NCBI RefSeq assembly: GCF_900188205.1
Contig: NZ_FZOH01000002.1
Span: 372,001-436,000, forward strand
DNA: 64,000 nucleotides
Direction of reading: 5' to 3'
Source: Geodermatophilus saharensis
GTDB taxonomy: Bacteria > Actinomycetota > Actinomycetes > Mycobacteriales > Geodermatophilaceae
Shown: in pieces, positions 26,669 to 32,060 of the stretch
Position numbering within the stretch: the first letter of the stretch is position 1
How the letters are laid out: each line of letters opens with the position of its first letter
Translations under genes and position numbers: made by a program
The notes under the pieces: generated by a model
What the model saw: the letters and a program-made list of their open reading frames with translations, nothing else
Database searches by the model: none
Told to the model about the DNA's origin: nothing

Positions 26669-29569
26669 TCAGGCGACGACGAAGTTCACCAGCCGCCCCG
26701 GGACGGCCACGACCCGCCGCACCGTCCTGCCGGCCAGCTGCGCGGCGACCCGCTCGTCGGCCCGCGCCGCCTCCTCCAGCACCGCGGCGTCGGCGTCGGC
26801 CGGCACCGTCACCTGCGCCCGCACCTTCCCGTTGACCTGGACGGCGACCTGCACGGTGTCCTCGGCCAGCCACCGCTCGTCGGCCACCGGGAACGGCGCC
26901 CACGCCACCGAGTCCGTGTGGCCCAGCCGCGCCCACAGCTCCTCGGCCAGGTGCGGCGCCAGCGGCGCGACCAGCAGCACCAGCGGCTCGGCCACCGCCC
27001 GCGGCACCGGCGAGTCCGCCCCGTAGGCGGCGGTCAGCGCGTTGGTCAGCTCGGCGATCCGGGCGATGGCCACGTTGAACCGCAGCGTCACCATGCCGTC
27101 GCGCACCCCGGCGATCGCCCGGTGCAGCGCGCGCAGCACGTCGTCGGACGGCGTCGCGTCCCCCGCGCGCACCGCGCCGGTCTCCTCGTCGACGACGACC
27201 CGCCAGATCCGCTGCAGCAGCCGCTGCGAGCCGACGACGGCCTTGGTGTCCCACGGCCGCGACTGCTCCAGCGGGCCGGTCGACATCTCGTACACCCGGA
27301 ACGTGTCGGCGCCGTAGGCCCCGATCATCTCGTCGGGCGTGACCATGTTCTTCAGGCTCTTGCCGATCTTGCCGTACTCGCGGGTGACCGGCTCGCCCTC
27401 GTAGAAGAAGCGCCCGTCCTCCTCGACCACGTCGGCGGCGGGCACGTAGAACCCCCGGGCGTCGGTGTAGGCGTAGGCGGAGATGTAGCCCTGGTTGACC
27501 AGCCGCCGGAACGGCTCCTCGCTGGAGACGTAGCCCAGGTCGTGCAGCACCTTGTGCCAGAAGCGCGCGTACAGCAGGTGCAGCACCGCGTGCTCCATCC
27601 CGCCCACGTACAGGTCGACACCGCCGACGTCGCCGGGCGACTGCGCGCCCAGCCAGTAGCGCTCCAGCTCGGGGTCGACCATCTGCGTGTCGTCACCCGG
27701 GTCCAGGTAGCGCAGGTAGTACCAGCACGAGCCGGCCCAGTTGGGCATGGTGTTCGTCTCGCGGCGGTAGGTCCGCAGGCCGTCGCCCAGGTCCAGCTCG
27801 ACCGTCGTCCACTCGGTCACCCGCGACAGCGGCGGCTCGGGCACGGAGTCGGCGTCGTCGTCGGGGAAGGTCTTCGGCGAGTAGTCGTCGACCTCCGGCA
27901 GCAGCACCGGCAGCAGCGACTCGGGCACCGCCCGCGGCAGGCCGGCGTCCTCGCCGTCGACGGCGTAGACGATGGGGAACGGCTCGCCCCAGTAGCGCTG
28001 CCGGCTGAACAGCCAGTCGCGCAGCTTGTAGGTGGTGGTGGCCTCGCCGGCGCCGCGCCGGACCAGCCAGTCGGTGATCGTCGCGATGGCGGTGGCCTTG
28101 TCCAGCCCGTCCAGGGAGATCTCGTCGTTGGACGAGTTGATCATCGCGCCGCTGCCGGTGAACGCGCCGCCCTCGAAGCCCTCCGGCGGCTGCACGGTGC
28201 GCACCACCGGCAGGCCGAAGGCCTCGGCGAACTCCCAGTCGCGGGTGTCCTCGCCCGGCACCGCCATGATCGCGCCGGTGCCGTAGCCGGTCAGCACGTA
28301 GTCGGCGATGAAGACCGGCAGCTCGCGGCCGTTGACCGGGTTGTCGGCGGTGACGCCCAGCCACACGCCGGTCTTCTCCCGGCTCTCGTTCTGCCGGTCC
28401 AGCTCCGACCGGCGCGAGGCCTGCCGCTGGTAGGCCTGCACCGCCTCGCGAGGGGTCGCCGCGCCGCCGGTCCAGCGCGGGTCGGTGCCGCCGGGCCACG
28501 CCTCGGCGGTCAGCTCCCCGACCAGCGGGTGCTCGGGGGCCAGCACCACGTACGTGGCGCCGAACAGCGTGTCGGGGCGGGTGGTGAACACCTCGATGGT
28601 GCGCTCACCGGCCGGGAAGCGGATGCGGGCGCCGGTGGAGCGGCCGATCCAGTTGCGCTGCACCTGCTTGACCGAGTCCGACCAGTCCAGCCGGTCCAGG
28701 TCGGCCAGCAGCCGCTCGGCGTAGGCGGTGATCCGCATCATCCACTGCGTCAGCGGGCGCCGGAACACCGGGAAGTTGCCGCGCTCGGAGCGGCCGTCGG
28801 GGGTGACCTCCTCGTTGGACAGCACCGTGCCCAGCCCCGGGCACCAGTTGACCGGCGCCTCGTGCCGGTAGGCCAGCCGGTGCGCGTCGACGACCTGCCG
28901 CTTCTCCACGGCCGACAGCTCCGCCCACGGCCGCCCCGCGGGATTGGTGCCCGGCGCCGGCGCGCGGGTGCCGGCGTCCAGCTCGGCCACCAGCTCCTCG
29001 ACGGGGCGGGCCCTCCCGGCCTGCTCGTCGAACCAGGAGCCGAAGATCTTCAGGAAGATCCACTGCGTCCACCGGTAGTAGCCCGGGTCGATCGTGGCGA
29101 AGGTGCGGCGCTCGTCGTGGTCGAAGCCCAGCCGCCGCAGCTGCGCGCGGATCGCCGCGATGTTGGCCTCGGTGGTGACCCGCGGGTGCTGCCCGGTCTG
29201 GACGGCGTACTGCTCGGCGGGCAGGCCGAAGGCGTCGTAGCCCATCGGGTGCAGCACGTTGTCGCCGTCCATGCGGCGGAACCGGCTGGTCACGTCGGTG
29301 CCCAGGTAGCCCAGCGGGTGCCCGACGTGCAGGCCGGCGCCCGAGGGGTAGGGGAACATGTCCATGACGAAGGACTTGGGCCGCCCGGCGACCCGCTCGA
29401 AGCCCTCCGAGAGCCGGCCCACCGGGTTGGGCGTGTGGAAGGTGCCCTCCCGCTCCCACCGGTCCTGCCACGCCAGCTCGATGCGCTGGGCCAGCGCGGG
29501 CGTGTAGCGGTGCGGCGGCACACCGTCCTCGGCAGGCTCGGTCGTGGTCTGGCTCGCCGTCTGGCTCAT
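26669..29569 (-). CDS. leuS: Leucyl-tRNA synthetase
   Basis: This class I synthetase charges tRNA-Leu. The 966-residue product has the HIGH-type motif as H81-V-G-H84 in [12 protein letters not shown] and the KMSKS-type motif as KIGKS at 734-738, with the editing domain between them. It is somewhat longer than E. coli LeuS. ATG 29569 has GGAGC 7 bases before it. Upstream lie a hairpin, an intrinsic terminator and a Leu-rich leader peptide, so expression is probably controlled by leucine supply or charging. Confidence 0.96.
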
Positions 29570-29604
29570 CGAGGTGCTCCCGGGGTCATCCGTCGGCGGA
29601 CACG

Positions 29605-29629
29605 AAAAAACCCCTCACACAGGAGGGGT
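29605..29629 (-). terminator. Attenuator terminator in the leuS leader
   Basis: On the minus strand ACCCCTC-CTGTGT-GAGGGGT forms a 7-bp stem followed by a T-run that ends in five further T. It lies 36 bases before the leuS ATG. Its classical U-tract is unlike the other terminators here. Confidence 0.85.
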
Positions 29630-29630
29630 C

Positions 29631-29663
29631 GCCGTGCTGACTGCTCGATCAGGTCAGCACGGC
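29631..29663 (-). promoter_or_regulatory. Upstream hairpin of the leuS attenuator
   Basis: GCCGTGCTGAC pairs perfectly with GTCAGCACGGC across an 11-base loop, immediately before the terminator. Its 5' arm overlaps the last codons and stop of the leader peptide, where a ribosome would disturb it. Confidence 0.7.
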
Positions 29664-29689
29664 CGGAGAAGCAGGCGCCCGCCGGTCAC
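29654..29689 (-). CDS. Putative leuS leader peptide with three consecutive Leu codons
   Basis: GTG at 29689 opens an 11-codon frame, MTGGRLLLRPC, whose codons 6-8 are CTG CTT CTC. CTT is a rare leucine codon in this GC-rich window. TAGGCT lies exactly 6 bases before the GTG, so the transcript would start on the start codon. The frame ends within the arm of the following hairpin. The arrangement is that of ribosome-mediated attenuation. Translation has not been shown and the name leuL is avoided. Confidence 0.65.
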   Translation of the reverse strand: MTGGRLLLRPC

Positions 29690-29695
29690 CCCTCC

Positions 29696-29701
29696 AGCCT
29701 A
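29696..29701 (-). promoter_or_regulatory. Leaderless -10 element of the leuS leader
   Basis: TAGGCT on the minus strand, 6 bases before the leader GTG at 29689. Confidence 0.55.
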
Positions 29702-29747: not shown

Positions 29748-32060
29748 GTGCACCCGGGCGCGCTGCCCGCCGATGCAGTACCCGTGCGCGCCGCAGCGGT
29801 GTCCCCCCGGTCCCCGGGAGCCGGCCCCCGCGACCATCTGCTGGTGGTCGCGGTCCTCGGCGTGGCCACCTTCACCACCGGCATCGGGCCCCGCCCCGGC
29901 GGGGCGGTGTGGGACGTCCTCTACGACGTCGTCGTCTACCACGTGCCGTGGCTGGCCGCCGGCGCCGCGTGCTGGCTGACCGCCCGCACGGCACCGCGCG
30001 AGGCCCTGGCCTGGCGGGCGCTGGCCACGACGCTCGTCATCGGGGCGCTCGGCAACGTCGTCCGGATCCTGCAGACCGGGCAGGCCGGCACCACGCCGTC
30101 GCTGCTCGGCGACTCCAGCGTCGCCGTCGCCTACGGCAGCCTCTACGTGGCGCTGTTCGTCTTCATCCGCGCCCGCGTGGCCCGCTTCCTGACCAGCATG
30201 TGGCTCGACGGCGTCGTCGTCGCCCTGGGGACGACGGCCGTGGGCATCGGCTTCGTGCTCGGTCCCTTCCTCGGCGCCGACGGCGACGTCTCGCTGCTGC
30301 AGCTGGCCTGGCCGGCCGCCGACGTCCTGCTGCTGGCCCTGGTCGCGGGCGTGTGCGCCATCCTCGGCGTGCACGCCGACCGCACGCTGCTGCTGGCCGC
30401 CGGGGCCGTGGCGTTCTTCGCCGTGGCCGACGCCGCCCTGTTCGCGCTCAGCGTCGCCGGCCGCTACACCGACGGCGGCCCGCTGGAGCTGGTGTGGCTG
30501 GCCGGCGTCCTGTGCGCCGCGGTCGCCGCGCAGCGCACCACCGGCGACCCGGCGCCGCGCGGCGACGACGGCGGGGTGCGGATCACCTGGCGCCTGGTCG
30601 CCCTCCCGCTGGCCGGCACGCTGGCCGCGCTCGCCGTCCTGGCCGCCGGCTACGGCGACGACCTGCCGGGCAGCGCCGGCTGGCTCGCCGTCGGCTGCGT
30701 GCTCGCCGCGCTGGCCCGCACCGCGGTCACCTTCCGCGAGGTCCGCTCGTTCGCGGCGGTCCGCCAGGAGGCCCGCACCGACGAGCTGACCGGCCTGCCC
30801 AACCGGCGCGCGCTGCTCGAGTCCGCCCGCACCGTGCTCGCCGGGGCCACCACCGCCCGCCCCGCGGCGCTGCTGCTGCTCGACCTCGACGGGTTCAAGG
30901 AGGTCAACGACAGCCTCGGGCACGGCTCCGGCGACCAGCTGCTGCGCCAGGTCGGCCCGCGCCTGGCCCCGGCGCTGGCACGCGGTGAGCTCCTCGCCCG
31001 CCTCGGCGGCGACGAGTTCGCCGTCCTGCTGCCCGACGCCGGCCTGTCCACCGCCGCCGAGCGCGCCCGCGCCGTCCACGACCTGCTGCGCCGGCCGTTC
31101 ACCGTCGACGGCGTCCGGCTGCACGTCGGGGTGAGCATCGGCGTCTCCACCGCGCCGGTCCCCGCCGACGACGTCCAGGAGCTGCTGCGCTGCGCCGACG
31201 TCGCCATGTACGCGGCCAAGACCGAGCGGACCGGCGTGCACGTCTACGTCCCCGACCCCACCAGCGGCTCCGGCGAGCGGCTGCGCACGATGGAGGAGCT
31301 GCGCACCGCCCTCGTGGCCGGGGAGCTCGACGTCCACCTGCAGCCGCAGGTCGCCATGGACGACGGCCGGGTGGTCGGCGTCGAGGCGCTGCTGCGCTGG
31401 CACCACCCGGTCCGCGGGCTGCTGGGGCCAGCCGTGGTCCTGCCCGCCGCCGAGCAGGCCGGCCTGCTGCGCCCGCTCACCGACGCCGTCCTCGAGCGCT
31501 CGCTCGACGCGGTGTCGCGCTGGTGGGCCGAGCACCGCGTCCCGGTGTCGGTGAACCTGTCGGCGGCCAACGTGGCCGACCTCGACCTGCCGGGGAAGGT
31601 CGCCGCCCAGCTGGCCCACCACGGGCTGCCGGCCGCGGCGCTGACCCTCGAGCTGGTCGAGGACACCCTGATGGCCGACCCCGAGCGCGGCCGCACCGTG
31701 CTCGCCGAGCTGCGGCGCCTGGGCGTGCGCACCTCCATCGACGACTACGGCACCGGCTACAGCTCACTGGCCTACCTGCGCCGCCTGCCGGCCGACGAGC
31801 TCAAGCTCGACCGCAGCCTCACCGCCGACGTCGCCGAGGACGAGCGCGCCGCGGCGATCGTGCGGCACACCGTGGCGCTGGCCCACGACCTCGGGTTGAG
31901 CCTGGTCGCCGAGGGCGTCGAGGACGCGGTCACCGCCGCCCGGCTGGCCGCCCTGGGGTGCGACGTCGCGCAGGGCTACGCCGTCGCCCGGCCCATGCCG
32001 GTCGGGGACCTGCTGCGCTGGCTGGCCGCCGAGCGGCAGCCGCTGGTGCGCACCGCCTGA
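29748..32060 (+). CDS. Membrane-bound GGDEF-EAL protein (cyclic di-GMP turnover)
   Basis: The product of up to 770 residues has about eight to ten hydrophobic helices in the first 340, then a GGDEF domain with intact GGDEF at 420-424, then an EAL domain with EALLRW at 546, DDYGTGYSSL, ELKLDR and VAEGVED. Both catalytic signatures look complete, so it could make or degrade cyclic di-GMP; which activity dominates cannot be read. GTG 29748 lacks a good ribosome site; GTG 29784 or 29802 are possible starts. Divergent from leuS. Confidence 0.88.
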   Translation: MHPGALPADAVPVRAAAVSPRSPGAGPRDHLLVVAVLGVATFTTGIGPRPGGAVWDVLYDVVVYHVPWLAAGAACWLTARTAPREALAWRALATTLVIGALGNVVRILQTGQAGTTPSLLGDSSVAVAYGSLYVALFVFIRARVARFLTSMWLDGVVVALGTTAVGIGFVLGPFLGADGDVSLLQLAWPAADVLLLALVAGVCAILGVHADRTLLLAAGAVAFFAVADAALFALSVAGRYTDGGPLELVWLAGVLCAAVAAQRTTGDPAPRGDDGGVRITWRLVALPLAGTLAALAVLAAGYGDDLPGSAGWLAVGCVLAALARTAVTFREVRSFAAVRQEARTDELTGLPNRRALLESARTVLAGATTARPAALLLLDLDGFKEVNDSLGHGSGDQLLRQVGPRLAPALARGELLARLGGDEFAVLLPDAGLSTAAERARAVHDLLRRPFTVDGVRLHVGVSIGVSTAPVPADDVQELLRCADVAMYAAKTERTGVHVYVPDPTSGSGERLRTMEELRTALVAGELDVHLQPQVAMDDGRVVGVEALLRWHHPVRGLLGPAVVLPAAEQAGLLRPLTDAVLERSLDAVSRWWAEHRVPVSVNLSAANVADLDLPGKVAAQLAHHGLPAAALTLELVEDTLMADPERGRTVLAELRRLGVRTSIDDYGTGYSSLAYLRRLPADELKLDRSLTADVAEDERAAAIVRHTVALAHDLGLSLVAEGVEDAVTAARLAALGCDVAQGYAVARPMPVGDLLRWLAAERQPLVRTA

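Follow-up and report, generated by a model that had tools for sequence, protein, structure and literature searches.

What does a short, leucine-rich reading frame do ahead of a leucyl-tRNA synthetase gene? This question is raised by a 64,000-nucleotide stretch of Geodermatophilus saharensis DNA (the window), in which leuS lies on the minus strand (26669..29569) and encodes a leucyl-tRNA synthetase of 966 aa (TIGR00396, scoring 867 bits where the cut-off is 548). A Leu-rich leader frame combined with a terminator before leuS points to attenuation. From the sequence and its conservation, we consider it highly probable that this leader is a ribosome-mediated transcription attenuator of leuS, likely sensing leucine tRNA charging.

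All parts of the leader lie on the minus strand. The -10 element of the predicted promoter, TAGGCT (29696..29701), is separated by 6 nt from the leader GTG at 29689. This GTG opens an 11-codon frame (29657..29689, GTG to TGC) that encodes VTGGRLLLRPC, the GTG being read as M, and ends at a TGA (29656-29654). Its three Leu codons, CTG CTT CTC, occupy 29674-29666, and the central CTT (29669..29671), the putative sensing codon, ends 5 nt upstream of the base of a hairpin that we call hairpin A. The 5' arm of this hairpin, GCCGTGCTGAC (29653..29663), overlaps the final leader codons and the stop codon, and it forms a perfect 11-bp stem with the 3' arm, GTCAGCACGGC (29631..29641). Abutting hairpin A is an intrinsic terminator, ACCCCTC-CTGTGT-GAGGGGT plus a T run (29605..29629), with a stem at 29629-29610 of 7 bp (8 with a G-U pair) and a T run that extends to 29605. 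The leuS ATG at 29569 follows 35 bases from the end of the T run and is preceded by GGGAG (29577..29581), judged from the sequence to be the likely Shine-Dalgarno site. An earlier sequence-only reading had described TAGGCT six bases before a GTG, the frame MTGGRLLLRPC with CTG CTT CTC, and an 11-bp perfect hairpin over the frame end followed by a 7-bp terminator with a T-run before leuS; we found all of these on the minus strand, the hairpin and terminator together spanning 29663-29605. The folded leader was more stable than all 200 dinucleotide shuffles (z -3.2, 0/200 as good). A terminator scan of 351 bases around the leader returned two overlapping matches, both to the same hairpin, against a shuffle mean of 0.0.

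We examined leader conservation in 151 leuS upstream regions: 27 from the same genome and near relatives, 24 more loci of the same order, and 100 stretches, 52 of them also belonging to that order and 48 to the 76 genomes of the same class in which a match was obtained. Three fragmentary matches (L030-L032), L044 and partial matches were left out. Leaders were sought as short frames containing LL with TANNNT 4-10 nt before the start and were then chosen by eye, and by this combination 112 of the 151 regions carried one. Reading of the remaining 39 regions revealed two more leaders, one missed by the LL rule (L146) and one missed in the choice by eye (L055), and a further leader in a named genome (L185) was recognised later by eye. 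All 19 genus members examined (L001, L004-L021) carry the leader. No such leader precedes 37 of the 151 leuS genes, including all 11 of family f8, which indicates that LeuS can be run without it.

The element is also specific to its place. A strict signature occurred once in the window, at the leader, when both strands were scanned, and was absent from both strands of 400 kb of this genome; among the leuS upstream regions it was found in the sense direction in 106 of 151 and in the antisense direction in none of 151. The core CTYN5GCCGYGCTGA has a single occurrence in the 4.9-Mb genome. With both hairpin arms included, the strict pattern matched 15 of 396 genomes of the phylum, once each, compared with one match for the reversed pattern, and we attribute this low yield to the strictness of the pattern. 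Every one of the 15 matches has CTT, with CTC permitted, and lies directly upstream of leuS. Three of them belong to one family in another class, where LeuS is ~40% identical (L369, L370 and L371; the leader of L369, for example, reads MAAALLLSPPR), which suggests either great age or transfer. The leader of the window is thus not a product of chance, and as a predicted element it is conserved ahead of leuS in many families of the class, as well as in one family that belongs to another class. Because the Leu codons and the terminator are kept in relatives, together with the -10 spacing, the earlier proposal of ribosome-mediated attenuation sensing Leu-tRNA charging gains support.

The spacing of the -10 element also bears on where translation would begin. 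In the 112 leaders, which had been preselected for TANNNT 4-10 nt before the start so that the counts fall inside that range, the hexamer stands 6 nt (64 leaders), 7 nt (43), 8 nt (4) or 9 nt (1) from the start codon, that is, 6-7 nt ahead in 107 of 112. A simple scan around the leader yielded no sigma-70 -35/-10 pair that passed, so the promoter call is based on the -10 hexamer together with the conservation of its spacing. With this spacing, the message is expected to begin on the start codon itself (predicted transcription start, 29689). The leuS leader of S. lividans, leuL2, is reported as a leaderless transcript (PMC8079986). From these two lines we infer that the leader of the window starts leaderless, its start codon being the first mRNA codon. 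The sequence-only reading had regarded such a start as unusual, which the S. lividans report contradicts. Just ahead of the leader GTG, GGAGGG resembles a Shine-Dalgarno site but is present in only two of the 112 leaders (L001 and L013). Pairing of GGAGGGG with ACCCCTCC of the terminator was rejected, since the former lies mostly upstream of the predicted start and GGAGGG is so rarely kept. At L028, where no leader was found, leuS itself may be leaderless; TATAGT stands there 6 nt ahead of an ATG that shares its frame with the LeuS match. On the other side of the promoter, a divergent gene for a GGDEF-EAL protein (770 aa; window positions 29748-32060, plus strand) begins 59 positions away from where the leader is predicted to start, so that a single short intergenic region would hold both promoters.

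We then asked which part of the leader frame is most strongly kept. For the codon-position count, leaders were aligned on the hairpin base GCCG and not on the Leu run. The codon ending 5 nt upstream of the hairpin base was CTT in 101 leaders, CTC in 10 and out of frame in one, and CTG was found there in none of the 112. Among the named genomes, where 79 of 80 loci were scanned and gave 68 matches, CTT occupied this position in 66 and CTC in one of the 67 in-frame matches. The window leader has a third Leu codon (CTC) after its CTT, and the CTT is still at the fixed place. These 112 leaders are related sequences and represent fewer independent events; the pattern nonetheless spans many families. 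What is most conserved in the leader is therefore not its run of Leu codons but a single CUU/CUC codon placed at a fixed distance from the hairpin. The earlier reading's remark that CTT is rare was borne out: it accounts for 40 of 7,614 Leu codons (0.53%), against 62% for CTG, in 150 genes that a crude frame-and-GC3 filter predicted in 400 kb of the genome. CUU and CUC are taken to be read by tRNA-Leu(GAG). Among 46 tRNA matches, all of them read by ARAGORN, there was one tRNA-Leu gene each for the anticodons GAG, CAG, UAG, CAA and UAA.

The Leu run is followed by four codons ahead of the stop in 99 of the 112 leaders. In six leaders the stop comes no more than one codon after the run, so that the ending P-[RC]-stop is lost. 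Five of these six still keep CTT 5 nt before GCCG, which indicates a constraint on the RNA; selection acting on the end of the peptide was rejected on these grounds.

The codon content of leuS itself showed a corresponding peculiarity. In the window, leuS contains 75 CTG, one CTC and no CTT among its 76 Leu codons, while CTC and CTT together make up about 36% in sampled genes (median 37%, lowest 13.7%, in 123 genes with at least 30 Leu codons). Its CTG share stands at the 100th percentile, above all 149 sampled genes. For non-Leu amino acids, the share of the top codon in leuS ranged overall from the 7th to the 85th percentile of the same sample (Val 8th, Arg 29th, Thr 36th, Ala 41st, Pro 82nd and Ser 85th). 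The codon bias of leuS is thus specific to Leu, and its other amino acids are ordinary. High expression was rejected as the cause, as rpoB has 30 CTC among 105 Leu codons (stop-to-stop frame) and the tuf frame 15 of 27.

Across genomes, the median CTC+CTT share in leuS was 2.6% with a leader (106 genes) and 28% without (18 genes), a comparison in which 7 of 80 named loci were left out as incomplete, L055 and L185 were counted among the 18 although their leader is present, and an out-of-frame match put L175 among the genes with a leader. Val usage was similar in the same two groups (0.63 and 0.59 C-ending). When leuS was compared with a control gene of the same genome, valS or ileS (19 of 30 over the valS cut-off), the shares were 1.9% against 31.5% with a leader (16 genomes) and 27.5% against 46.8% without (14). 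The difference between leuS and its control gene separated genomes with and without a leader (rank test without correction for relatedness, p=0.003). In four further leuS genes, with neither leader nor control gene, the CUC+CUU share was 18-59%. There were exceptions in both directions. G039, G269 and two Nocardia loci (L208 and L217) have a purged leuS with no visible leader and have perhaps lost the sensor or use a different one. The leader-bearing L055 and L185 have 20% and 30% CUC+CUU in leuS, G177 combines a one-Leu leader with a leuS only partly purged (20%), and within the genus the share reaches up to 15.6% (L009). The purging of CUC and CUU from leuS thus goes with the presence of the leader mostly, but not always.

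Hairpin A and the terminator were parsed automatically in 101 of the 112 leaders; the other 11 did not pass the parse. In 100 of the 101, hairpin A starts ahead of the stop codon by 7 nt (85 leaders) or 8 nt (15), and 0-5 nt separate it from the terminator in every one of the 101. Furthermore, in 52 aligned sequences chosen from 93 usable references, one pair of hairpin A showed a compensatory change, being U-A in 38 and C-G in 14, and this exchange turns the last amino acid of the peptide from Cys to Arg.

These features allow a working model. The ribosome would start at the first base of the message and read on. With enough charged tRNA-Leu(GAG), it would pass CUU and reach the stop codon inside the 5' arm of hairpin A; a ribosome at this stop must have opened hairpin A, so the terminator could form and leuS would be cut off. 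With too little charged tRNA-Leu(GAG), the ribosome would wait at CUU with hairpin A just ahead. A CUU codon in the ribosomal A site puts the hairpin base at about +12, near the mRNA entry, so that hairpin A may survive while the ribosome waits. As hairpin A abuts the terminator, the intact hairpin, flush with it, would be expected to hinder its closure, and RNA polymerase would read into leuS. That hairpin A itself acts as the antiterminator is our preferred guess, though a tentative one, made because it lies flush with the terminator and no conserved competing helix was found.

The main competitor to this assignment is the classical trp-type arrangement, in which hairpin A would serve as anti-antiterminator: stalling at the Leu codons would place the ribosome over the 5' arm, and the freed 3' arm (GCRCGG) would pair with the terminator loop (CUGYGY) to give a 2:3 antiterminator. 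In the window, 6 pairs can be drawn for such a helix, the loop CUGYGY recurs in several families, and classical leuS attenuators, antiterminators included, were predicted for S. coelicolor and S. avermitilis by Seliverstov et al. (PMC1262725). Over the 101 parsed leaders, however, the 2:3 helix was no better than in shuffles (mean z +0.4), and its mean energy was -4.4 kcal/mol compared with -13.2 kcal/mol for the terminator. In the alignment, 76.2% of its cells were paired against 77.2% in shuffles, one pair failed in 38 of 51 sequences, and no covariation was seen. When the ribosome footprint was masked in folding, the terminator persisted in 22 of 23 leaders (exception L009). We therefore regard a classical 2:3 antiterminator as a possibility that the sequences do not favour. 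Two other pairings were set aside. Pairing between the hairpin loop and the 3' arm of the terminator reached p<0.1 against shuffles in 22 of 101 leaders and could form at -10 to -13 kcal/mol in L009, L011, L013, L017, L019 and L021, but at -1.4 kcal/mol in the species of the window; being strong in part of the genus and absent in the window, it was rejected as a general switch. The Leu-run region was the best upstream partner of the terminator 3' arm in 58 of 101 leaders, a count made with no shuffle control, and a stalled ribosome would cover the Leu run.

Three further explanations were weighed. Since a terminator before a gene can lower expression with no sensor, and translation of the leader is a prediction, the frame might have no regulatory translation, the hairpin and terminator merely fixing the level of leuS or ending upstream transcription. 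The joint conservation of the Leu codons, the frame, CUU at a fixed distance and the -10 spacing makes this improbable, and chance would not keep a codon that makes up 0.5% of Leu codons in 101 of 112 leaders. Still less probable is translational control, in which the Leu run (CUCCUU), complementary by eye to AGGAG-type sites, would pair with the leuS Shine-Dalgarno site in the manner described for the LEU element of leuA (PMC1262725). This would leave the conserved terminator with its T run, situated between the Leu run and the Shine-Dalgarno site, in need of a role, and pairing with AGGAG would not seem to require a preference for CTT. Most aminoacyl-tRNA synthetase genes of Firmicutes use T-boxes (PMC1262725), so a tRNA- or metabolite-binding RNA (T-box or riboswitch) was also considered. 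No Rfam family reached its gathering score anywhere in the 64-kb window, T-box covariance models included, and the element holds a conserved reading frame instead; we judge this explanation extremely improbable.

The kind of device is already described in Streptomyces, and the leader of the window is a further case. The 12-aa leuL2 leader of S. lividans TK24 precedes the same gene and likewise has an LLL run, a hairpin and a U run (PMC8079986). Its peptide, MRAVRLLLSEPR, recurs identically among the Streptomyces loci examined, and the window peptide, VTGGRLLLRPC, differs from it at the start and the end. A fixed CUU, its distance from the hairpin and the codon content of leuS are not mentioned for leuL2 in the available portions of that report (PMC8079986). 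The attenuators that Seliverstov et al. (2005; PMC1262725) predicted resemble the present leader in having a Leu-codon leader peptide and a terminator upstream of leuS; in the available text they are marked with an antiterminator hairpin, whereas no conserved 2:3 helix was found here, and they cover two species, compared with 112 of 151 regions in this study.

Similarities also extend to Corynebacterium, where the ilvBNC attenuator (PMC11857589) and the ilvB-II motif (PMC10272879) are described with a leader frame, a hairpin after the control codons and an adjacent terminator, the bases of antiterminator and terminator being adjacent. For ilvBNC, CUU is among the control codons and leaderless initiation is discussed (PMC11857589). 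In C. glutamicum, its adjacent, slightly overlapping hairpins are assigned antiterminator and terminator roles on mutational evidence (PMC11857589). Those two hairpins overlap by GCC, whereas the hairpins of the leuS leaders abut without shared bases; similarly, the pairing between loop and terminator arm proposed for ilvB-II (PMC10272879) is not general in leuS leaders.

The leu operon leader of E. coli and Salmonella is not known to be leaderless, relies on another codon and precedes another gene. It is like the leuS leader in using rare Leu codons as sensors, CUA in that case, and selective charging theory expects sensitive codons in sensors (PMC1183508).

We found no paper that states the fixed CUU or the leuS codon purge, in a library that lacks most subscription journals; Lopatovskaya et al. 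2010 may overlap. As far as this search shows, the fixed CUU/CUC position, the breadth of the leader and its apparent link to the codon content of leuS would be new, and this breadth and codon logic make the leader informative beyond one more case. A more speculative reading, which we hold only as a conjecture, combines these features: the leader may be a one-isoacceptor sensor that responds only to tRNA-Leu(GAG) through a single CUU/CUC codon 5 nt before an antiterminator hairpin, while leuS, purged of CUU and CUC, would still allow LeuRS to be made from CUG when that tRNA empties. If true, the sensor and its output would use different Leu isoacceptors, and the system would offer a natural case in which to test selective tRNA charging in an organism other than E. 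coli. Likewise, if hairpin A is the antiterminator, attenuation without a trp-type antiterminator would be extended to an aminoacyl-tRNA synthetase.
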